Assembly (NCBI RefSeq): GCF_014237455.1
Contig: NZ_JABZFL010000099.1
Location: 1-55,664 of the forward strand
Length of the DNA: 55,664 bases
Source: Desulfobacula sp.
Lineage (GTDB): Bacteria; Desulfobacterota; Desulfobacteria; Desulfobacterales; Desulfobacteraceae
Direction: 5' to 3'
The translations under genes were made by a program, and so were the position numbers. Of the stretch, positions 11,168-53,414 are shown piece after piece (the stretch's first letter is position 1; every line of letters starts with the position of its first letter). The notes under the pieces were generated by a model. It did no database searches and had not been told where the DNA came from. It saw only the letters and a list, made by a program, of their open reading frames with translations.

Positions 11168-11378
11168 GGCAGCAGCTTTTGTATTTTTAATTTTTTTGTC
11201 AACCGTTTTTTATTTTTTTGGAGTAAAGGTTAATTTGTGGGAGGGGTAAAAGCCAGTACCAAAACAAGCTGAAAAAGACTATAAGGTTTGCCATGAGCAT
11301 GTCAATAAGATGATAAAAGGCTCAAAGATTTTTTCAGGATGGCTGGAGAACGGTGTGTTCTCCAGCCAGGCATGGAGG

Positions 11379-12701
11379 TTAGAGGGCTGTTTCCGGGTGA
11401 AATACATTGACTTCTTTTAAGTCTTCTCCCAGATACTCCCGTTCATTTGGCCCCAATATTCCCAAGGACAGGCAAATTAAGGTCCATAAATGAACCACAG
11501 GGTACTCTCCGCCATAGTGCTCGCTGAGTTCATGGATTTGAGCATGGCAATTATGACAGGCTGCAATGCAGTAATCAGCACCCGTGGCCTTAATCTGTTC
11601 GTCTTTTATTTTTCCGTATTCAAGGCGCTCGTCTTTAAACCCTGATTGAAGGAAACCGCCGCCGCCGCCGCAGCAATAATTATTGGATTTGTTTGGTTGC
11701 ATATCTATAAAATTTTCTTCTCCGACAACTGATTTAACAACAAACCGCAAATCTTCGGCAATAGGATCTCCATAGCTTTTTCTTACGATTTGACAAGGGT
11801 CCTGTACGGTGAATTTTATTTTAAGGTCTTTATTCCAGTCGGAATTGACCTTTAATTTCCCTTCACGGATCCATTTTGCATAATATTCGTACATGCTTTT
11901 AACGTCAAAGTTATGCTCAAGGTTGAATTTTTTCAGTCCTGACAGGACTGAGAAAGTGACGTGACCTCACTCGGTATTGAGATAGGTCTTACAGCCCAGT
12001 TTGTTGGCCTGGTCCACACTGATGCCTGTTGTATGCTTCCATGCATCATCATCAGCCAGGAACATGCAATAGTTTTCGCCTCCCCAACCCCGGCTGCCAT
12101 AGGTCCAGTCAACACCTGCCAGATGGAGGATCTTCCACAGGGGTACCATTTCATCGGGTTCCGTCACAGGTTCCCTTGAGTTCTGGTTCAGGAAAAACTC
12201 AGCCCCTTCCTTGTCAATGGGGGCCTGCATATCGGCAAATTCCGGCTGGGCCTCCTGGTATTCTTCCAAAACATCCTCAACCACAAATTCAAAATCTTCC
12301 GGGGAGGCTGCCATGGCGCTGCAGCTTTCATTTTTCATGGCCGCGTCACAGGACCCGAGGATTCCCTTTGGTCTTTCTTCTCTGGGGCGCATCTGTCGGG
12401 CATTAAAAATCAATTGGGGGATATCGATCTGCATGGGACATACATAAATGCAACGCATGCACATGGTACACATCCAGGGCCAGTTAGATGCGGCAATTTC
12501 CTCATCCATACCTAATGCAGCCATTCGAAGAAATTTTCTGGGATCCATATTATCAAGTCCTGTGGCAGGACACCCTGATGCGCATGCACCACAAGTTAAA
12601 CAGGCACTTAAATTGCCGCCGTCCGGCAGCAACTCTTTGACTTTATCCAAAAAAACATTTTTTCGTTTCGTATTTCCAAGCTTAAGGACGGCTACCGTCA
12701 T
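11379..12701 (-). CDS. HdrC-HdrB fusion iron-sulfur protein, selenocysteine-containing
   Basis: A 440-residue protein if the TGA at 11967-11969 is read as selenocysteine (Sec245). The N-terminal HdrC-like part has two 4Fe-4S motifs, C34/37/40/44 (CLTCGACASGCP) and C78/81/84/88. The C-terminal HdrB-like part has two CCG domains. In the first, the conserved Cys of 'TECGH' is replaced by Sec in the frame 'LNTE-U-GHVTFSVLSGLKKF'. The second has 'DPCQIV', 'YCCGGGGGF' and 'CHNCHAQI'. Homology runs straight through the TGA, and a SECIS-like hairpin follows it. HdrBC modules move electrons to disulfides or between soluble carriers and membrane complexes. A normal ribosome-binding site (AAGGAA) precedes the ATG at 12701. 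It is downstream of the CGGC gene on the same strand. Confidence 0.85.
11933..11951 (-). promoter_or_regulatory. Bacterial SECIS hairpin for selenocysteine insertion
   Basis: On the minus strand, 22 nt of sequence separate the TGA (11969-11967) from the loop of a perfect hairpin: TCAGTCC, loop TGTCA, GGACTGA. The loop carries G at its second position. Both the distance (bacterial SECIS loops lie roughly 16-37 nt after UGA) and the loop G fit SelB recognition. The hairpin lies inside the coding sequence, as in formate dehydrogenase. Confidence 0.75.
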
Positions 12702-12720: not shown

Positions 12721-13065
12721 TTAATGGTAATCGTGAGTACCTACAACAACCTCAATACCGGTTTTTTCCTCTATGATGCTTGCCAGATCCTTTGCCCCGG
12801 TATAGGGACATCCTGGTACGGCATTGGTCAGGCAGGAACTTAAATATATTTTATCAGGTTTGATTTCAGATAATTTCATTGCCATGCCAATGGCGGGAAC
12901 AACAGTTCTTCCGGGACATTCACATTTAACAAAGGCAACAACCTGTGATGGAGTTTCAAATGTACCATCACCCAGGGAGGCTGCTTTCAGGCACCGCCAC
13001 TCGCCGGGACACCCGTAACCCTGGTCCATATAAGAACCACATCCGACAACCGCTACTTTTTCCAT
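12721..13065 (-). CDS. CGGC-domain protein (DUF1847-like)
   Basis: A 114-residue protein starting 'MEKVAVVGCGSYMDQGYGCPG'. It is rich in cysteines (GCPGEWRC, 'FVKCECPGRT', 'SSCLTNAVPGCPY'), matching the CGGC family of small putative metal-binding proteins of anaerobes. Its biochemical role is not established. I start it at 13065, where AAGGAG precedes the ATG, rather than at an upstream ATG at 13110. The HdrBC selenoprotein follows 19 bp after its stop, so the two are very probably co-transcribed and may act together in electron transfer or cluster delivery. Confidence 0.75.
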   Translation of the reverse strand: MEKVAVVGCGSYMDQGYGCPGEWRCLKAASLGDGTFETPSQVVAFVKCECPGRTVVPAIGMAMKLSEIKPDKIYLSSCLTNAVPGCPYTGAKDLASIIEEKTGIEVVVGTHDYH

Positions 13066-13125
13066 TTTTAAATTTCTCCTTGATATAGAGTCCTTTGTTT
13101 TTAAAACCAAATCTTAAATAGAAAG

Positions 13126-14248: not shown

Positions 14249-15016
14249 TTACAGCCTTGATGCCAGTACAGCAGCACCAATGGCACCATTCTCCTGGGCA
14301 AAATCCCCCACAATGAGTTCAAATCCAAGACGCTTTTCAAGGGCCGTTATCATACCTTTGTTTTTTGCTACACCACCGGTCATCATTACCGGTTCTTTGA
14401 TGTTGATTTTAAAAGCAAGGATGGCAACACGGGCGGCAGCAGATTCATGAATGCCGGCAATAATATTTTCCCTTTTCTGCAACCCTGCGATCATGGAAAT
14501 GACCTCTGATTCTGCAAACACCGTGCAGATGCTGCTGATTTTTGACGGTTTGTCTGCCTTAAGACTGAAGTCTCCCATTTGATCCAACTCAACTTCCAGG
14601 GCATTGGCCATGACTTCAATAAAGCGGCCTGTACCTGCCGCACATTTGTCATTCATGGCAAAGTTTTCAACCTGGCCGTTTTTATCTAGAAGAATAGCTT
14701 TGCTGTCCTGGCCGCCGACATCAATTATTCCCCGTATATCGGGATTCATAAAATGCGCACCGGTTCCATGACAGATGATTTCCGTCATGGCCGTGTCTGC
14801 AAAATTTACGCTGGCCCGGCCATAGCCCGTGGAAACAATGGCTGTTATATCTATTTTTGAAACCCCCACTTTTTCTAAAACTGCTTCAAAAACTGTGATT
14901 CCTGCGTTTAAGGGATTATACCCGGTCGGTATGACATGGGTGCCCAGAAGTCGATTTTTTTTTATTAACGCGGCCTTGGCTGTGCTGGAACCAATATCGA
15001 TGCCTGCATAAATCAT
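14249..15016 (-). CDS. 2-hydroxyacyl-CoA dehydratase/benzoyl-CoA reductase activase (BadF/BadG/BcrA/BcrD ATPase)
   Basis: A 255-residue protein of the ASKHA fold. Motifs: 'YAGIDIGSSTAKAALI' (phosphate 1), 'IDVGGQDSKAI' (phosphate 2), 'KCAAGTGRFIEVMANAL' with the bridging [4Fe-4S] cysteine, the second cluster cysteine in 'SSICTVFAESEV', and 'MTGGVAKN'. These are features of HgdC-type archerases, dimers that couple ATP hydrolysis to one-electron injection into the dehydratase or reductase. The ATG at 15016 has AAGGA upstream and lies one base from the stop of the preceding gene, so translation is probably coupled. It is the last gene of the three-gene operon. Confidence 0.93.
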   Translation of the reverse strand: MIYAGIDIGSSTAKAALIKKNRLLGTHVIPTGYNPLNAGITVFEAVLEKVGVSKIDITAIVSTGYGRASVNFADTAMTEIICHGTGAHFMNPDIRGIIDVGGQDSKAILLDKNGQVENFAMNDKCAAGTGRFIEVMANALEVELDQMGDFSLKADKPSKISSICTVFAESEVISMIAGLQKRENIIAGIHESAAARVAILAFKINIKEPVMMTGGVAKNKGMITALEKRLGFELIVGDFAQENGAIGAAVLASRL

Positions 15017-15017
15017 G

Positions 15018-16247
15018 TTAACTGTTCCTTTGTTTGATGATTTCCATGAATGCATCAATCCGAGTCTCCACCTGGGATTGTGAAAAGTTTCTGGGGTCCA
15101 CCATATCGGCCTCAATCATGAGAACCGGAATATTTGTTTTTTCTCGAACGATTTTCATAATATCCATCTGTCCAAAAGAGTAGGGCTTGCAGGAACGGTT
15201 TGAATGCATGACCAATCCGTTGATGTCATAAAATTTAATCATTTCAAGCACCTGGTCTGCCATCTGGTCTACTCCGATGTTCAGATAGATCCGGGTGTAG
15301 GCTTCGGCAATGGAATCCAGAAAATTATTTTCATCCGTATATTTTATGGCACTGCACCAGGCCGAAGTATAAGTGTCTGCTACAAGACAGGCATTGTGAT
15401 CGGAGAATTTGTTGGACAGCCATTTGAGTCGATACCAGATGGGCAGATTGTCCCATAAAAGCCTGTATTTTTCATTGGGAACCATACTGATGCCATCTTT
15501 GATGCGCTGCTCCATTTCCTCTAACAGGTCTTTATAAAAATCAACAGCGATCTGCGTCCCCCGCAATGTGACAATCAGGGCAAGAAAAAAGAATGCATCA
15601 AAGGCAGACATGGGCGATGGATTGCGGGCAGTGGTGTTGAGAACTTTCTGCCAGAGCATCTGGCTCTTATAGGCAAGTTTGCCCACCTGTGCCATTTTTT
15701 CATAATCAAAGTTTCTTTTTGTGATTTTTTCAAGAAAGACAATATATTCATCAATCTGGGCCCGGACATATTTGGCGATTTCAGGGGAATATCGGGTATG
15801 GCAGATGGGAGTATCCAGGATAAACAGGGGCACCTTATAGAACCGGGCCTGGACTTCATACCACTTCAGCACAGTGCCGCAGATATTATTGCAGCAGATC
15901 AGCATGTCCGGTTTCGGCAGTCCTCCTATGGGCCCACCTTTGACAACCGAGCAGGAGATATCCGTCCTTGCATAGGAACACAGATCGGAACTGTATCCCA
16001 TATCTTCGGCTTTTGTGCATAGATCTTCTCCCATTTTGGATGCTCCGATCATGGCCCCATGATTTTCAGGATAAACAGGGATGATATCCATTGCCACCAG
16101 AGGTTCTACCGGCCCGCCGGAAGTGATCCAGGCAACCTGTTTATTGTTCTGTTCTGCGGTCATGGCATCCAGGTAATAGGTGGTCATGATATCCCGCATT
16201 TTTTTGGCACACTTTATTTTTCTTTTGTCTGAAAGCTTATCCGGCAT
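15018..16247 (-). CDS. 2-hydroxyacyl-CoA dehydratase family subunit (HgdA/HgdB/BcrB-like), 409 aa
   Basis: The protein belongs to the HGD-D/BcrBC fold. It shows 'VAWITSGGPVEPLVAMDIIP' near the N-terminus, cysteines in 'DLCSYARTDISCSVV' and 'ICCNNICGTVLKWYE', and 'GLVMHSNRSCKPYSFGQ' near the C-terminus, the usual places for iron-sulfur ligands. It should pair with the 370-residue subunit encoded just upstream to form the heterodimer that receives electrons from the activase. The substrate class (2-hydroxyacyl-CoA dehydration or aryl-CoA reduction) cannot be decided from motifs alone. The gap to the upstream gene is 14 bp and to the activase one base. Confidence 0.9.
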   Translation of the reverse strand: MPDKLSDKRKIKCAKKMRDIMTTYYLDAMTAEQNNKQVAWITSGGPVEPLVAMDIIPVYPENHGAMIGASKMGEDLCTKAEDMGYSSDLCSYARTDISCSVVKGGPIGGLPKPDMLICCNNICGTVLKWYEVQARFYKVPLFILDTPICHTRYSPEIAKYVRAQIDEYIVFLEKITKRNFDYEKMAQVGKLAYKSQMLWQKVLNTTARNPSPMSAFDAFFFLALIVTLRGTQIAVDFYKDLLEEMEQRIKDGISMVPNEKYRLLWDNLPIWYRLKWLSNKFSDHNACLVADTYTSAWCSAIKYTDENNFLDSIAEAYTRIYLNIGVDQMADQVLEMIKFYDINGLVMHSNRSCKPYSFGQMDIMKIVREKTNIPVLMIEADMVDPRNFSQSQVETRIDAFMEIIKQRNS

Positions 16248-16261
16248 ATGGCAAGTCCTTT

Positions 16262-17374
16262 TTAAATGTAATGAATAAAGGTTTCAAAACGGGTGGATAA
16301 CTGCCCGAGGTTTTGCTGCTGATCATCCATTTCAATCAAAAGGGTTTTTATGTTTTCTTTTTCAAGGAATTCTTTTAAATAGGGATAATCAAATGCATGG
16401 GGGTCACAGAATTTGAGCAGCATAAAAACAACCCCGTCGGCCTTGTTTTTTTTTGCAAGGGATATCATATTCTCACCACGGGCAGTGGCCGAAGAATGTT
16501 TTGCAGGACAGATTATGCGATCCATATATCGTGTGGCAATAGCTGTCAAAGGTTCTTCATCTTCCAGAATCTGGCCCTCGAACCATCGCTGGCCTGTACA
16601 AAGGTCGTCTCCCACGATAACGCCGCCGGCCGCTTCAATGGCTGTATAGATATCAGGGGAGTCACAGATCGAACCGGAAACAACGATTCGTTTGCCATTT
16701 TGTTCAGGAGTATCCATCTTTTCTATATTGGCCGCAATGGCAGGCAAAAGATCGGCCACCTCATCCCGATCCATCACCATTGATCCTTTGACAATGGTAT
16801 ACAGATCAGCGCCTTTTATGATTCCAGGCTTTTGGGATTGAAGGGCATAGATTTTTGACAGGTTTTTTCTGATGAGATTGAATTTTTTAATGGACTCCCG
16901 AAGATCTGTATCGGTGATTTCTCTTCCGGCAGCTATCTCAAGGTCCTTTTTAAATTTGGTCAGAACATCCACCATATAAATTTTTGCACTCTGTGTGTTC
17001 AGTTTGACCGGCAGGACTACATCTGCAAAAAATTCATATCTCCCCTTCATGCGCCAGATGTCACTCAGGCGCTGGATGGAATCACAGGTATGGGGAAATA
17101 CGGTTCCATCAAGGAAATCAAGCCGTCCTGACAGACTGTCCTCCAGCACACCCCGGACCAGGGAACAGCAATAAGTCTGAAGATGTTGTTCCGCCAGGAT
17201 AATGTCTGATTTTGATGAAAACAGACGCATGGGATGAAATCCTGCCGCATATATCAATTCCTCCGGTGCATAGGAACATAAGGTCCCGACAATTTTTTTT
17301 TGTTTTGCTTTTATTTTATCAGCAAAGGCTGACACATCTTTTGTGGCATCATGAAAAATTTTGATTTCTTTCAT
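16262..17374 (-). CDS. 2-hydroxyacyl-CoA dehydratase family subunit (HgdB/BcrC-like), 370 aa
   Basis: The first gene of the operon. It has the family start segment 'GTLCSYAPEELIYAAGFHPM' (a cluster cysteine), 'TVFPHTCDSIQRLSDIW', 'VSGSICDSPDIYTAIEAAGG' and 'MLLKFCDPHAFDYPYLKEFL'. The cysteine pattern (C-S-Y, H-T-C-D, K-F-C-D-P) is that of the catalytic-cluster subunits. I start at 17374, where GGAG precedes an ATG, rather than at an upstream ATG at 17419. A strong sigma-70-type promoter lies about 100 bp upstream. Together with the next two genes it forms a complete activatable dehydratase/reductase. Confidence 0.9.
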   Translation of the reverse strand: MKEIKIFHDATKDVSAFADKIKAKQKKIVGTLCSYAPEELIYAAGFHPMRLFSSKSDIILAEQHLQTYCCSLVRGVLEDSLSGRLDFLDGTVFPHTCDSIQRLSDIWRMKGRYEFFADVVLPVKLNTQSAKIYMVDVLTKFKKDLEIAAGREITDTDLRESIKKFNLIRKNLSKIYALQSQKPGIIKGADLYTIVKGSMVMDRDEVADLLPAIAANIEKMDTPEQNGKRIVVSGSICDSPDIYTAIEAAGGVIVGDDLCTGQRWFEGQILEDEEPLTAIATRYMDRIICPAKHSSATARGENMISLAKKNKADGVVFMLLKFCDPHAFDYPYLKEFLEKENIKTLLIEMDDQQQNLGQLSTRFETFIHYI

Positions 17375-17462
17375 ATTAAGTATCTCCAGCGTGCTCACCT
17401 TTTTGGTGAAGCTTTTCAAACCTAAGTGTAATCAAGCTGATATCAAACAGAAAACGCATTTT

Positions 17463-36579: not shown

Positions 36580-39186
36580 ATGGAACAGCGGTATCATCCT
36601 GAATTGGTAGAACCTGAGTGGCAGGCATACTGGAATAAACATCAGCTTTTTAAAGTCACTGAAGATTCCTCAAAAGAAAAATATTATCTGTTAGAGATGT
36701 TTCCTTACCCTTCCGGTAAAATACATATCGGTCATGTGCGTAATTATACCATTGGTGATGTGGTTGTCAGGTACAAACGGATGAAAGGCTTTAATGTTAT
36801 TCATCCCATGGGGTGGGACGCATTTGGCATGCCGGCTGAAAATGCAGCCATTGCGAATAATACCCATCCTGCTGCCTGGACATATGACAATATAGGCGCC
36901 ATGCGGGAGCAGCTTAAAAAGATGGGATTTTCATATGACTGGGACCGTGAAATCGCCACCTGCCGGCCGGAATATTATAAATGGGAGCAATGGCTTTTTC
37001 TTAAAATGCTTGAAAAAGGAATGGCTTATCGAAAAGAATCCTATGTGAACTGGTGTGAAAAATGTCAGACGGTTCTTGCCAATGAACAGGTTGAGCAGGA
37101 TAAATGCTGGAGATGTTCCCAGACGGTTCAGCAAAAAAAACTGTGGCAGTGGTTTTTTAAAATTACAGATTATGCCGAAGATCTTCTGGTCCATTGTGAT
37201 AAACTGCCGGGATGGCCTGATAAAGTAACCGTGATGCAGAAAAACTGGATTGGCAGAAGTGTTGGATCTCAATTAAAATTTAAAATTGATGGCAGGGATG
37301 AAGATATTGAGGTTTTCACCACAAGACCGGATACGGTTTTCGGTGCAACCTTTATGTGCCTTGCTCCGGAACATCCGCTGGTTGAAAGCCTTTCAAAGGG
37401 GACACAAAAGGAAAACGAAGTGGCAGCGTTTGTTCAAAAGGTATCCAGCCAGGAAAGATCTGCCGAAGGCATAGAAAAATATGAAAAAGAAGGGGTTTTT
37501 ATCGGTACCTATTGTATTAATCCTGCAACCGGTGAGAAAATTCCGGTTTACACAGCCAATTTTGTTTTAATGGAATATGGAACCGGTGCCATCATGTCCG
37601 TACCAGCAGGGGATCAGCGGGATTTTGATTTTGCCAGGAAATATGGTCTTGACATCAGGGTGGTGGTGCAGCCGGAAGGGGAGAACCTCAACGGAAGCAC
37701 CATGAAAGAAGCCTACACCGATGAGGGGGTGATGGTAAATTCCGGTGAATTTAATGGACTGGACAGCAAAAAAGCCATAGATGTCATGACAGACTGGCTG
37801 GAAAAAAAGGGCAGGGGAAAGAAAACGGTTTCCTATCGATTAAGAGACTGGGGGATTTCAAGACAACGGTATTGGGGCGCGCCGATTCCGGTTATTCACT
37901 GCCCGGATTGCGGTGTGGTTCCTGTCCCCGAGACCGATCTTCCCATAAGACTTCCTGAAGACGCAGATTTTCTTAAAAAAGGGGGGTCTCCCTTGCCGAC
38001 GCTTGATTTTTTTGCAAAAGCCACCTGTCCGGAATGCGGCAGACAGGATGCAAAAAGAGATACTGATACCATGGATACCTTTGTGGAGTCTTCGTGGTAT
38101 TATTTAAGATATTGCTCACCAAGATATGAAGATGGTATGTTTGACCCTGAGGCCGTAAAATATTGGGCTCCCGTGGATCAGTACATCGGTGGTGTAGAAC
38201 ACGCGGTGCTTCACTTATTATATTCAAGATATTTTATGCGGGTATTAAATACGCTTGGAATGATTGATTTTAAAGAACCGTTTACCCGACTGCTTACTCA
38301 GGGCATGGTCTGCAAGGAAACCATGACATGTCCTGACCATGGATATCTTTTTCCCGAAGAAGCGGTGAAAAATGTTGAGGACAATCTTGTGTGCACAAGA
38401 TGCAACAATGATGTAGAGGTCGGACGGGTTATTAAGATGTCCAAATCCAAGAAAAATGTGGTTGATCCCAATGAACTGCTTGGAAAATATGGTGCCGATG
38501 TGGTCCGGTTATTCTGCCTGTTTGCAGCTCCTCCTGAAAGAGATCTTGAATGGAGTGAGGACGGGGTTGAAGGCAGTAACAGATTTGTAAACAGGGTGTG
38601 GCGTCTTGTACTGGAATGCTTGGAAAAGATTGATGGATCAGACGAGCCCTTTACCGGCCCAGCCTCCGACCTGTCATCAGCACAGGCAAAAGATCTCTAT
38701 ATCAAGGCAAACCAGACCATACAAAAGGTCACGGATGATATTGATAAAAGTTTTCATTTTAATACAGCCATTTCTGCTGTAATGGAACTTGTAAATGCAT
38801 TGTACGTGATTGATCTTGATTCCGCAGACACTGAGTTGAAAAAAGTGATTCGGTTCAGTCTTGAGAACACCCTGTTACTATTGTCTCCAATTATCCCGCA
38901 TTTTTGTGAAGAGCTTTTTAAAAGATTAGGCAAGAATGGATCAATTATAGAGCAATCCTGGCCCGAATACAGAAAGGATTCTCTAAAAACAGACGATGTT
39001 CTTGTTGTGGTCCAGGTAAACGGGAAACTTCGATCAAAATTTACAATCAATGCAGACAGTGAAGAGACTGAGATCAAAGAAACAGCACTGGCTGATAAAA
39101 AGATCAAAAAACATATGGGTGATAAAGAACCCAAAAAGGTTATTCTTATCAGAAAAAAACAAACACTTATAAATATTGTGGTTTAA
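36580..39186 (+). CDS. leuS: Leucyl-tRNA synthetase
   Basis: 868 residues, full length for a bacterial LeuRS. The class I signature HIGH is 'PYPSGKIHIGHVRNY' (about 42) and KMSKS is 'KMSKSKKNVVDP' (about 620). The CP1 editing domain is present ('FTTRPDTVFGATFMCLAPEH' and 'GTGAIMSVPAGDQRDFDFA'), with a zinc-like domain 'CEKCQTVLANEQVEQDKCWR'. The anticodon-binding and C-terminal domains end in 'KKVILIRKKQTLINIVV'. It charges tRNA-Leu in the cytoplasm. AAGGAG precedes the ATG. lptE follows immediately, with its ATG one base after the leuS stop. Confidence 0.97.
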   Translation: MEQRYHPELVEPEWQAYWNKHQLFKVTEDSSKEKYYLLEMFPYPSGKIHIGHVRNYTIGDVVVRYKRMKGFNVIHPMGWDAFGMPAENAAIANNTHPAAWTYDNIGAMREQLKKMGFSYDWDREIATCRPEYYKWEQWLFLKMLEKGMAYRKESYVNWCEKCQTVLANEQVEQDKCWRCSQTVQQKKLWQWFFKITDYAEDLLVHCDKLPGWPDKVTVMQKNWIGRSVGSQLKFKIDGRDEDIEVFTTRPDTVFGATFMCLAPEHPLVESLSKGTQKENEVAAFVQKVSSQERSAEGIEKYEKEGVFIGTYCINPATGEKIPVYTANFVLMEYGTGAIMSVPAGDQRDFDFARKYGLDIRVVVQPEGENLNGSTMKEAYTDEGVMVNSGEFNGLDSKKAIDVMTDWLEKKGRGKKTVSYRLRDWGISRQRYWGAPIPVIHCPDCGVVPVPETDLPIRLPEDADFLKKGGSPLPTLDFFAKATCPECGRQDAKRDTDTMDTFVESSWYYLRYCSPRYEDGMFDPEAVKYWAPVDQYIGGVEHAVLHLLYSRYFMRVLNTLGMIDFKEPFTRLLTQGMVCKETMTCPDHGYLFPEEAVKNVEDNLVCTRCNNDVEVGRVIKMSKSKKNVVDPNELLGKYGADVVRLFCLFAAPPERDLEWSEDGVEGSNRFVNRVWRLVLECLEKIDGSDEPFTGPASDLSSAQAKDLYIKANQTIQKVTDDIDKSFHFNTAISAVMELVNALYVIDLDSADTELKKVIRFSLENTLLLLSPIIPHFCEELFKRLGKNGSIIEQSWPEYRKDSLKTDDVLVVVQVNGKLRSKFTINADSEETEIKETALADKKIKKHMGDKEPKKVILIRKKQTLINIVV

Positions 39187-50481: not shown

Positions 50482-50633
50482 TGATTATTCCTTTCGTCCC
50501 TTATCTATATAAAGTGATGAAGGAAAAATCAATCAGGGAAAACCCCTAATTTTTTAAAATTACCAGGTGAGGATTTGGAAGAAATATGGTAAAAACAATA
50601 ATTTGATTTTGATTAATTTTAGGATATTAACCC

Positions 50634-52154
50634 ATGCTATTGATTTTTCCACCCGTTGCTAAACCGTGTGAACCGCCGGCCGGTGTGGCGCTCTTGTCAT
50701 CTGCATTAAAAGAGAACAGACGTTCCTGCCATGTATATGATGCAAATGTTGAAGGGCTTTTATATCTGATTAATTCAGATATTGATCCCATTGATTCCTG
50801 GTCAAAAAGGGCATTGAAGAACAGAGAAAAAATATTGTGTGATTTAAAAGACAAATCTTTGTATGAAAACATGGACCGGTATCATCAAAGGGTTTATGAT
50901 TTGAATAAGCTGTTGTCCATCAGTGTGGATACGAAAAGATTCAGGATTACCCTAAGCGATTATTCAGATTCCAGGCTTTCTTCTGTTAACAGCAAAGATT
51001 TATTGAAAAGTGCAGGACAGTATAAAGAGAATCCGTTTTACCGGTTTTTTGAAGACAGGGTAAGACCTCAAATTCTGAACTCAGATTCAAAGCACATTGG
51101 CATTTCCCTTTGTTATCTGAACCAGGCCTTGGTCAGTTTTGCTCTTGCCGGATGGATAAAGGATAGTTTTAAAGACAAAAAAATTATCATGGGCGGAGGG
51201 CTTATATCCTCCTGGATGAGCAGGCCGGATTATAATGATCCCTTTAAAGACCTGGTTGATGTCATGATCAGGGGGGAGGGAGAACAACCGCTTCTGAAAC
51301 TTTCCGGTGTAAAAGATATTTCTAAGAAGCATTATGTTCCGGATTATGATTTTGTAAAAGATGATCTTTATATCGCACCGGGAAAAGTTCTGCCTTTCAG
51401 GGCATCCATTGGATGCTACTGGAGCAAGTGCCGGTTCTGCCCCGAAAAGGCGGAAATCCGTCCCTATAGTTCCCAGCGGGCTTCAAAGGTGTTACAGGAT
51501 TTAAAAGCGGTTGATCAAAAATATGCGCCTGACTATATACATTTAATTGACAATGCCGTTACCCCGGCTTTTTTAAAAGCCCTGGCAAAGAATAAATTTG
51601 GATTTAAATGGTATGGATTTGTGAGATTTGAAAAAGAGTTTCTGGACCCGGGTTTCTGTCATGATCTTAAACGGTCGGGATGCGATATGTTAAAACTGGG
51701 TCTTGAATCAGGTGACCAGGGCGTGCTGGACCAGATGAACAAGGGAACCAATCTGAATTATGTGTCAACCATATTAAAGAACCTTCATCAGGCCGGGATC
51801 TTAACTTTTGTCTACCTTCTTTTTGGAACAAGTTTTGAGGACGAGAAGGCTGCGTTTAAGACGCTTGAATATATAAAGGCACATGAAAAATATATTAATT
51901 ATTTAAACTTGGCTGTATTTAATCTTCCCAAATTCAGTGATGATGCCAAAGATCTTGATACCCGGGAATTTTACCATGGCGATCTGTCATTGTATTTAAA
52001 TTTTACCCATCCTTTTGGGTGGGACAGAAGGCAGGTTAAACAATTTTTGGATAAAACATTTAAGAAACAGGTGTCTGCCGGGTCGGGCATTCGTAAAAAC
52101 CCAGCCTTTTTTTCATCAAACCATGCTGTATTTTTTAAACCCCAGGGGAAATGA
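50634..52154 (+). CDS. B12-binding-like radical SAM protein with CX4CX2C cluster motif
   Basis: 506 residues. The N-terminal part resembles a cobalamin-binding domain ('LLIFPPVAKPCEPPAGVALL', 'GISLCYLNQALVSFALAG', 'KIIMGGGLISSW', 'MIRGEGEQPLLKLS') but carries a long insertion at about 50-145. The radical SAM cluster motif is 'SIGCYWSKCRFCPEKAE', CX4CX2C rather than the usual CX3CX2C. Downstream are 'YIHLIDNAVTP' and 'LKLGLESGDQGVLDQMNKGT'. Substrate unknown. cinA starts three bases after its stop, so they share an operon. It is not closely similar to the radical SAM protein at 7.4-9.1 kb. Confidence 0.84.
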   Translation: MLLIFPPVAKPCEPPAGVALLSSALKENRRSCHVYDANVEGLLYLINSDIDPIDSWSKRALKNREKILCDLKDKSLYENMDRYHQRVYDLNKLLSISVDTKRFRITLSDYSDSRLSSVNSKDLLKSAGQYKENPFYRFFEDRVRPQILNSDSKHIGISLCYLNQALVSFALAGWIKDSFKDKKIIMGGGLISSWMSRPDYNDPFKDLVDVMIRGEGEQPLLKLSGVKDISKKHYVPDYDFVKDDLYIAPGKVLPFRASIGCYWSKCRFCPEKAEIRPYSSQRASKVLQDLKAVDQKYAPDYIHLIDNAVTPAFLKALAKNKFGFKWYGFVRFEKEFLDPGFCHDLKRSGCDMLKLGLESGDQGVLDQMNKGTNLNYVSTILKNLHQAGILTFVYLLFGTSFEDEKAAFKTLEYIKAHEKYINYLNLAVFNLPKFSDDAKDLDTREFYHGDLSLYLNFTHPFGWDRRQVKQFLDKTFKKQVSAGSGIRKNPAFFSSNHAVFFKPQGK

Positions 52155-52157
52155 ACC

Positions 52158-53414
52158 ATGATTGCTCACATTCTGTCAACGGGTGATGAAGTTCTTTTAG
52201 GAGATATTGTTGATACCAATTCAGCCTTTCTTTGCAGTGCGCTAAAAGAAATGGGCATTGACGTTCAAAAGATCGTGGCAGTGGGCGATGATGTTAATGA
52301 CATTGCATCAGTCATTGGCGACAGTTCTTTGACGGCAGATATCTGCCTTGTGACCGGTGGCCTGGGCCCAACCCGGGATGATCTGACAGCTTTTGCTGGC
52401 GGCAAGGCAGCAGATGACAGGCTTGAGCTGAGCCAGGACGCTTTGGCATCCATGAGATCTTATTTTAAGAAAAGAGGATTTGTCTTGACCAAAGACAATG
52501 AAAAACAGGCCATGCTGCCATCAAGCTCGAACATGCTGATAAATTATAATGGTACGGCTCCGGGATTTTATATGAAGATCAATAGATGCCTGTTTTTCTT
52601 TATGCCGGGCGTGCCGTCTGAAATGAAAATTATGTTTGAAAAAGAAGTCAAAAAGATATTGGTCAATGAATTCAGCCTTACTGATGATATCCTGATTGAA
52701 CGGCTGACAGTGTTCGGCCTTACCGAATCAAAGGTCGGGTCATTATTAAAAGGGTTTGAAACAAAATTTTCTGAACTGCGGCTGGGATTTCGGGCGACTT
52801 TTCCTGTGATTGAAGTCAAAATAATTTTAATTGATTCCCGTGAAGACAAAGATATATCTGATATTGCAAGAGCAAAACAATGGGTGATACAACAGCTTGA
52901 AAACAAGGTGATATCCGATCGGGGATTAACCATTGCACAGGAGGTGGGGCGATTGTTGACAAAACTAAAGAAAACCCTTGCCATTGCAGAATCCTGTACA
53001 GGCGGCCTGATATCAAATATGGTGACCGATGTGGCAGGCAGTTCTAATTATTTTTTATTTTCAGGCATTACCTATTCCAATGATGCAAAAATAAATATTT
53101 TGAATGTCAGAAAAGAGACGATTGTTGAATATGGGGCAGTTCATGATCAGACCGCCCTTGAAATGGCTGAAGGTGTAAGACGTAAAGCCGGTGCTGATTT
53201 TGCCATCTCAACCACCGGTGTTGCAGGACCTGGCGGTGGCACTGAAGAAAAACCGGTTGGCATGGTATGTATAGGACTTGCAGGGTCTGAATTGTCAATG
53301 GCCAAAACATACCGGTTTTCTTTTGATGACAGGGTTAAGAATAAAAAAATATTTGCCACGACAGGTTTGGAGCTTTTAAGACGGCATCTTGTTTTGTTGG
53401 ACAAAACACCTTAA
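52158..53414 (+). CDS. cinA: CinA-family nicotinamide-nucleotide amidase / ADP-ribose pyrophosphatase
   Basis: 418 residues with both CinA parts. The N-terminal MoCF-like domain (1-170) has 'AHILSTGDEVLLGDIVDTNS', 'CLVTGGLGPTRDDLTA' and 'FFMPGVPSEMK'. The C-terminal PncC domain (about 260-415) has 'TLAIAESCTGGLISNMVTDV', 'YSNDAKINIL' and 'STTGVAGPGGGTEEKPVGMV'. It deamidates NMN in pyridine nucleotide recycling. AGGGGA lies before the ATG. Its last 39 bp overlap the 3' end of the opposite-strand hydrolase gene. Confidence 0.94.
   Translation: MIAHILSTGDEVLLGDIVDTNSAFLCSALKEMGIDVQKIVAVGDDVNDIASVIGDSSLTADICLVTGGLGPTRDDLTAFAGGKAADDRLELSQDALASMRSYFKKRGFVLTKDNEKQAMLPSSSNMLINYNGTAPGFYMKINRCLFFFMPGVPSEMKIMFEKEVKKILVNEFSLTDDILIERLTVFGLTESKVGSLLKGFETKFSELRLGFRATFPVIEVKIILIDSREDKDISDIARAKQWVIQQLENKVISDRGLTIAQEVGRLLTKLKKTLAIAESCTGGLISNMVTDVAGSSNYFLFSGITYSNDAKINILNVRKETIVEYGAVHDQTALEMAEGVRRKAGADFAISTTGVAGPGGGTEEKPVGMVCIGLAGSELSMAKTYRFSFDDRVKNKKIFATTGLELLRRHLVLLDKTP

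Follow-up and report, generated by a model that had tools for sequence, protein, structure and literature searches.

A selenocysteine-containing HdrC-HdrB-type iron-sulfur protein downstream of a CGGC-domain gene in Desulfobacula sp.

Organization of the locus

The window analysed here, the whole stretch of 55,664 nucleotides of a Desulfobacula sp. contig, carries an HdrD-like gene on its minus strand. The gene forms one frame of 440 residues, from an ATG at 12701 to a TAA at 11381–11379, with a single in-frame TGA, so that the split at 11969–11967 from which the original prediction started was borne out (Table 1). The TGA is codon 245 and has 244 codons before it and 195 after; an annotation halting there would break the gene in two. 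A CGGC-domain gene lies directly upstream, and the HdrD-like gene begins 19 bases after it. The hairpin just past the stop codon, a possible transcript end, has no T run and is absent from the list of our terminator scan, which found 8 terminator-like sites where 3.8 were expected (sd 2.2); the promoter scan stayed at chance level (8 found, 6.6 expected).

Table 1. Features of the HdrD-like locus (positions are those of the window)
Feature	Position	Strand	Evidence
Hairpin of 12 bp just past the HdrD-like stop codon, possible transcript end	11340..11368	-	Fold z -6.4, 0/200 shuffles as good
Sec-containing HdrC-HdrB-type (HdrD-like) iron-sulfur protein, 440 residues, Sec at 245	11379..12701	-	Frame with one TGA; Pfam Fer4_8 and CCG; HmcF/TmcB/DsrK models through the TGA
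Second CCG domain, residues 298–389; Cys 303, 343, 344, 382, 385 of a predicted non-cubane cluster	11535..11810	-	Pfam PF02754; each Cys in 144/144 rows; aligned with EtfD D2 ligands
SECIS hairpin, 7–8 bp stem, loop GUC, starting 15 nt past the TGA	11933..11951	-	Pairing, covariation, loss in Cys homologues
TGA codon read as selenocysteine 245, motif E-U-G-H	11967..11969	-	Homologue codons
HdrC-like two-[4Fe-4S] domain, residues 31–92; Cys 34, 37, 40, 44, 78, 81, 84, 88	12426..12611	-	Pfam PF13183; each Cys in 144/144 rows
CGGC-domain protein, 113 aa, directly upstream of the HdrD-like gene; ORF extendable to a TTG at 13110	12721..13062	-	Pfam PF08821, 78.8 bits

Pfam recognized only iron-sulfur and CCG domains in the protein (Fer4_8 at residues 31–92 and one CCG at 298–389), and the first CCG domain was without a Pfam match. 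The NCBIfam models for HmcF (residues 72–397), TmcB (77–402) and DsrK (67–396) nevertheless cross the TGA without a frameshift, which agrees with the earlier claim that homology continues in one frame on both of its sides. What the protein has in common with these three families is an alignment over residues 67–402 that passes through the selenocysteine position. The scores fall far below the cut-offs (114.3 against 400 bits for DsrK NF045796, 170.2 against 750 for HmcF NF045711, 169.7 against 735 for TmcB NF045724), and we therefore place it in the HdrC-HdrB superfamily as none of those curated proteins.

A script run over the window for frames with a single TGA and at least 70 codons on either side returned three, the HdrD-like frame among them. 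The frame at 36694–37272 falls entirely over another long ORF. A second selenoprotein at 50631–53414 was considered and rejected, given that this region consists of two adjacent frames (506 and 418 aa) in which the TGA is a normal stop with an ATG right after it. By eye these frames are radical-SAM-like and CinA-like, and the junction looks like an ordinary gene boundary.

Selenocysteine at codon 245

A pattern scan of the genome contigs collection turned up 484 relatives, and the 80 best were retained. All 80 have TGA at codon 245 and match without any other stop. The original prediction had proposed checking this column for Cys or Sec in homologues; when this was done in a wider set of 144, reaching down to 28% identity, the codon was TGA in 120, TGC in 22 and TGT in two, so that residue 245 is only ever Sec or Cys, even among relatives at 28–35% identity. 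Two rows removed from this set also have a stop at codon 245, given as TGA. The flanking residues are nearly as constant: His247 occurs in 144/144 rows, again including the 28–35% relatives, Glu244 in 143 and Gly246 in 142. On a quick tree of 111 rows, with many weak branches, the Sec/Cys state requires eight changes, while gene contexts clustered. Selenium and sulfur would thus have been swapped several times at this position, reaching down to the DsrK/HmcF-type relatives, which in the same genome (28–35% identity) read ECGH and hence have Cys.

The hairpin had been described as a stem TCAGTCC/GGACTGA starting exactly 15 nt past the TGA, and it is found just so. It is better drawn as eight pairs, from +16/+34 to +23/+27, closed by the three-nucleotide loop GUC at +24 to +26. 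Among 106 unique Sec sequences 790 of 848 pair cells are paired, compared with at most 384 when the partners are slid and with a mean of 707.5 (maximum 727) in 1000 within-column shuffles. For five of the eight pairs there are sequences in which both partners have changed (18, 2, 10, 5 and 38 sequences). The outermost pair, +16/+34, is weakly kept (76/106), and the other seven form in 96 to 106 of the 106 sequences. Among Cys homologues of at least 50% identity (n = 16) only 60 of 128 cells are paired. Bacterial SECIS elements have a G early in the apical loop, and G is the first loop base in all 106 unique Sec sequences. A conserved apical G in SECIS is likewise named in a figure legend of PMC1794560. 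Codons +7, +8, +10 and +11 show no synonymous change (same-codon use 1.0) across 99 homologues, the Sec rows with at least 70% identity, a value that none of 167 background codons matches.

Minimum-energy folding of the six Sec rows below 50% identity gave the hairpin in two (L194, L195), a variant of it in three (L191, L192, L204) and another fold in L193. For the window sequence itself, 199 of 200 shuffles fold less well than the 29-nt hairpin (z −3.2). The 45-nt stretch does not stand out in this way (z −1.7; 14/200 shuffles as good), and so the case for the hairpin rests on conservation and covariation. The Rfam SECIS families gave no match.

A search of the genome for selA, selB, selC and selD, proposed with the prediction, recovered all four above cut-off (tRNA-Sec 76.5 bits, selB 346.1, selA 596.9, selD 370.6). 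The selD gene (contig C37, 10289–11212) has one in-frame TGA of its own.

The locus therefore unites what marks a bacterial selenoprotein: a TGA at a Cys/Sec column, a covarying SECIS that is lost in Cys homologues, and the Sec genes. Codon conservation, hairpin covariation and these genes lend strong support to the predicted pair of Sec at 245 and a SECIS hairpin, and, short of chemistry, residue 245 is almost certainly selenocysteine. That the protein is instead no selenoprotein, the TGA being a nonsense mutation, an assembly error or the border of two separate genes, has the stop codon itself in its favour and nothing more; set against the TGA in 80/80 best relatives, the covariation and the Sec machinery, its probability is negligible. 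UGA might also have a dual output, read as Sec when selenium is at hand and as a stop when it is not, with a deliberate ferredoxin-like product of 244 residues under selenium limitation. The two-[4Fe-4S] domain does sit entirely upstream of the TGA. However, no data call for it, and the genome holds two more Sec paralogues (72% and 58% identical), its nearest Cys relatives being just 34% and 32% identical; we consider this quite improbable.

Relation to known families

By its sequence the HdrD-like protein is an HdrC-HdrB fusion related to DsrK, HmcF, TmcB, HdrD and EtfD, and it is probably soluble. The best matches of its predicted structure (pLDDT 89) are HdrB chains (E 5.7e-6 to 4.8e-5), and a profile search of PDB sequences retrieved HdrC, HdrB and the mycobacterial EtfD (9ojn). 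Both halves resemble the methanogen HdrB/HdrC (PDB 5odc, 8rvu) in sequence and fold. HdrB holds a pair of non-cubane clusters, according to extracts of PMC13083937, whereas in the HdrD-like protein the second site alone is complete: of the Cys set that HdrB and HdrD types have in both CCG domains, the second domain keeps all and the first only U245.

The family to which the protein belongs is already in print. An "Fe-S oxidoreductase (GlpC)" was listed among selenoproteins in 2006 (Zhang and Gladyshev, PMC1794560) and again in a 2026 review, which in the portion available gives its motif as UGH (PMC13188914). The HdrD-like protein has U-G-H at residues 245–247, and relatives of it stand beside HdrA or HdrL plus MvhD, judged against the printed motif and operon (hdrA, frhD). 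Likened in this way by motif and context, the two share the Sec in U-G-H, the occurrence in Deltaproteobacteria and relatives adjoining HdrA and MvhD/FrhD; the window copy differs in lying apart from hdrA, after a CGGC gene. A second precedent is hdrD4 of Desulfobacterium autotrophicum HRM2, described in excerpts of PMC2702500 as a Sec-containing heterodisulfide reductase subunit. Going by that description, the HdrD group of HRM2 resembles our protein in joining HdrC and HdrB domains with no membrane part, and HdrD4 also in being a selenoprotein. The HdrD-like protein thus joins the published UGH/"GlpC" family as a further true selenoprotein, a new member and not new as a kind. Selenoproteins as such are no surprise in these sulfate reducers; the position of the Sec matters more. 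Our literature search, which mostly excluded subscription journals, found no paper on the mechanism of the Sec in this family.

Cluster ligands of the two CCG domains

The structure of EtfD allows the two CCG domains to be considered ligand by ligand. Extracts of PMC13083937 give its D1 as a linear [3Fe-4S] cluster held by Cys503, 538, 581 and 584, and its D2 as a non-cubane cluster held by Cys637, 672, 673, 709 and 712 together with His583, which completes D2 and renders it non-catalytic. In a profile alignment to 9ojn, hand-counted and of low identity, U245 falls on Cys581, H247 on His583, and C303, C343, C344, C382 and C385 on Cys637, 672, 673, 709 and 712. The five cysteines of the second domain occur in 144/144 rows. 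The remaining D1 ligands (Cys503, 538 and 584) align with A167, W199 and V248, so that one of four D1 ligand positions, U245, is kept. The two proteins therefore share an HdrC-HdrB-like soluble part, the Cys581/His583 equivalents and all five D2 cysteines. EtfD has a membrane region of five transmembrane helices and a D1 cluster, three ligands of which are missing in the HdrD-like protein.

This alignment suggests that the cluster of the first CCG domain is probably gone and that the second is complete, perhaps capped by His247. The original prediction had put the Sec at a probable cluster ligand or redox-active position. An ordinary first CCG cluster is unlikely, because the other three ligand positions are A167, W199 and V248; a redox-active or second-cluster role fares better. 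We also observed that Cys118 and Cys212 are invariant in 130/130 homologues of at least 50% identity and missing in 14/14 below it. Either is a possible partner of Sec245.

The CGGC protein and the gene neighbourhood

The CGGC subfamily (E 1e-15 or better) was found in 32 of 86 family genomes. Of these 32, 21 have it ahead of a listed HdrD-like gene in the same orientation, the two matches being 22–170 bases apart; some of the 11 exceptions may be due to a contig end or to a neighbour missing from the list. Such pairing suggests that the two proteins work together. Across the wider homologue set the neighbourhood is more varied: HdrA, or HdrL plus MvhD, is encoded on the same strand within 4.5 kb in at least 61 of the 144 rows, at least 30 of these also having MetF or MetV, and a CGGC gene adjoins the HdrD-like gene in at least 14, all three counts being lower bounds as many loci are short.

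A search of the literature for "CGGC domain" gave no match. The cysteine pattern of the CGGC protein (C-x-GR ... C ... C-P/H-Y, by eye) invited comparison with MvhD and with the HdrA N domain, and such a remote relationship was rejected as evidence. With hhalign, MvhD gave 1.2% at first and then 9.4%, and HdrA-N 1.8%, while MetV, the intended control, gave 16.9%, leaving the relation unsupported. Foldseek with the weak model of the protein (pLDDT 66) had no hit under E 1e-3; at rank 8 (E 0.025) came a chain A, which we take to be HdrA, from an Elp-Hdr complex. The best phmmer hit among PDB sequences had an E value of 0.18.

Possible role of selenocysteine 245

The explanation that we favour, with some but by no means full confidence, is a UGH-family selenoprotein in which Sec245 is redox-active beside a cluster. 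Electrons would pass from the two N-terminal cubane [4Fe-4S] clusters to a single non-cubane [4Fe-4S] cluster of the second CCG domain, with Cys303, 343, 344, 382 and 385 and perhaps His247 as its ligands. The first CCG domain would have lost its own cluster, with Sec245, two residues ahead of His247, as the sole surviving ligand position. In the least certain step, the selenolate of Sec245 would point across the vacated first site towards the non-cubane cluster and react with a disulfide or thiol partner. Such an arrangement would make a cluster-plus-selenol active site, for which the upstream CGGC-domain protein is the likely partner in this lineage.

Some observations weigh against parts of this explanation. 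The histidine that makes D2 non-catalytic in EtfD (as excerpted from PMC13083937) may point to nothing more than an electron relay in our protein as well. Since the DsrK/HmcF-type relatives have Cys and the tree shows eight Sec/Cys changes, neither the fold nor the basic function depends on Sec. As to the CGGC protein, 11 of its 32 genomes are without a listed HdrD-like gene beside it, and it was found beside only 14 of the 144 rows. The main alternative is that Sec245 is a structural ligand, binding iron of either the non-cubane second cluster or a reduced remnant of a cluster, and that it tunes the potential for electron transfer without reacting with a substrate. The equivalent position is a cluster ligand in EtfD, as is the His two residues on, and the Cys118 and Cys212 that are invariant in homologues of at least 50% identity could complete a cluster. 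The substitutions at three of the four D1 positions speak against it, and so does the absence of these two cysteines from all 14 rows below 50% identity, in which U/C245 nonetheless persists. We regard a structural ligand as possible but rather unlikely.

Should the redox-active reading of Sec245 hold, one might tentatively extend it to a branch of HdrB/DsrK proteins that lost the first cluster and turned its surviving ligand into a catalytic chalcogen (Cys, repeatedly Sec) working with a His-capped non-cubane cluster of the second domain, a generalization to which we give rather little credence at present. In that case the active site would be a distinct one, with the CGGC protein as its dedicated thiol partner in Desulfobacteraceae. 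The natural exchange of Sec and Cys beside a predicted non-cubane cluster offers a ready-made probe of whether the residue is catalytic or a ligand.

Other copies and neighbouring genes

With the window copy, the genome has three Sec HdrD-like genes, the 72% copy being on contig C66 and the 58% copy on C46. The former (locus L141, 6286–7602) has no adjoining Hdr partner and is flanked by genes that look helicase-like and ParA/ParB-like by eye. Upstream of the CGGC-HdrD pair in the window, at 14249–17419 on the minus strand, lies a three-gene run of the 2-hydroxyacyl-CoA dehydratase/benzoyl-CoA reductase type, comprising two HGD-D proteins and a BadF/BcrA-type activase, all below equivalog cut-offs. 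Eight of the best 80 loci, all near relatives, share this upstream run in the same orientation, and therefore no functional link between it and the HdrD-like gene is claimed. In 17 of the best 80 loci (e.g. L083, 9019–9558) the HdrD-like gene is followed by one for a short conserved protein (about 120–180 aa); one representative had no Pfam or NCBIfam match. The 58% copy belongs to a run (locus L142, 3137–11963) of MetF-like, Sec HdrD, HdrL (1480 aa), MvhD, MetV and MetF genes, named partly by eye, and the MvhD frame of this run has an in-frame TGA of its own, in C-C-Q-Y-U.
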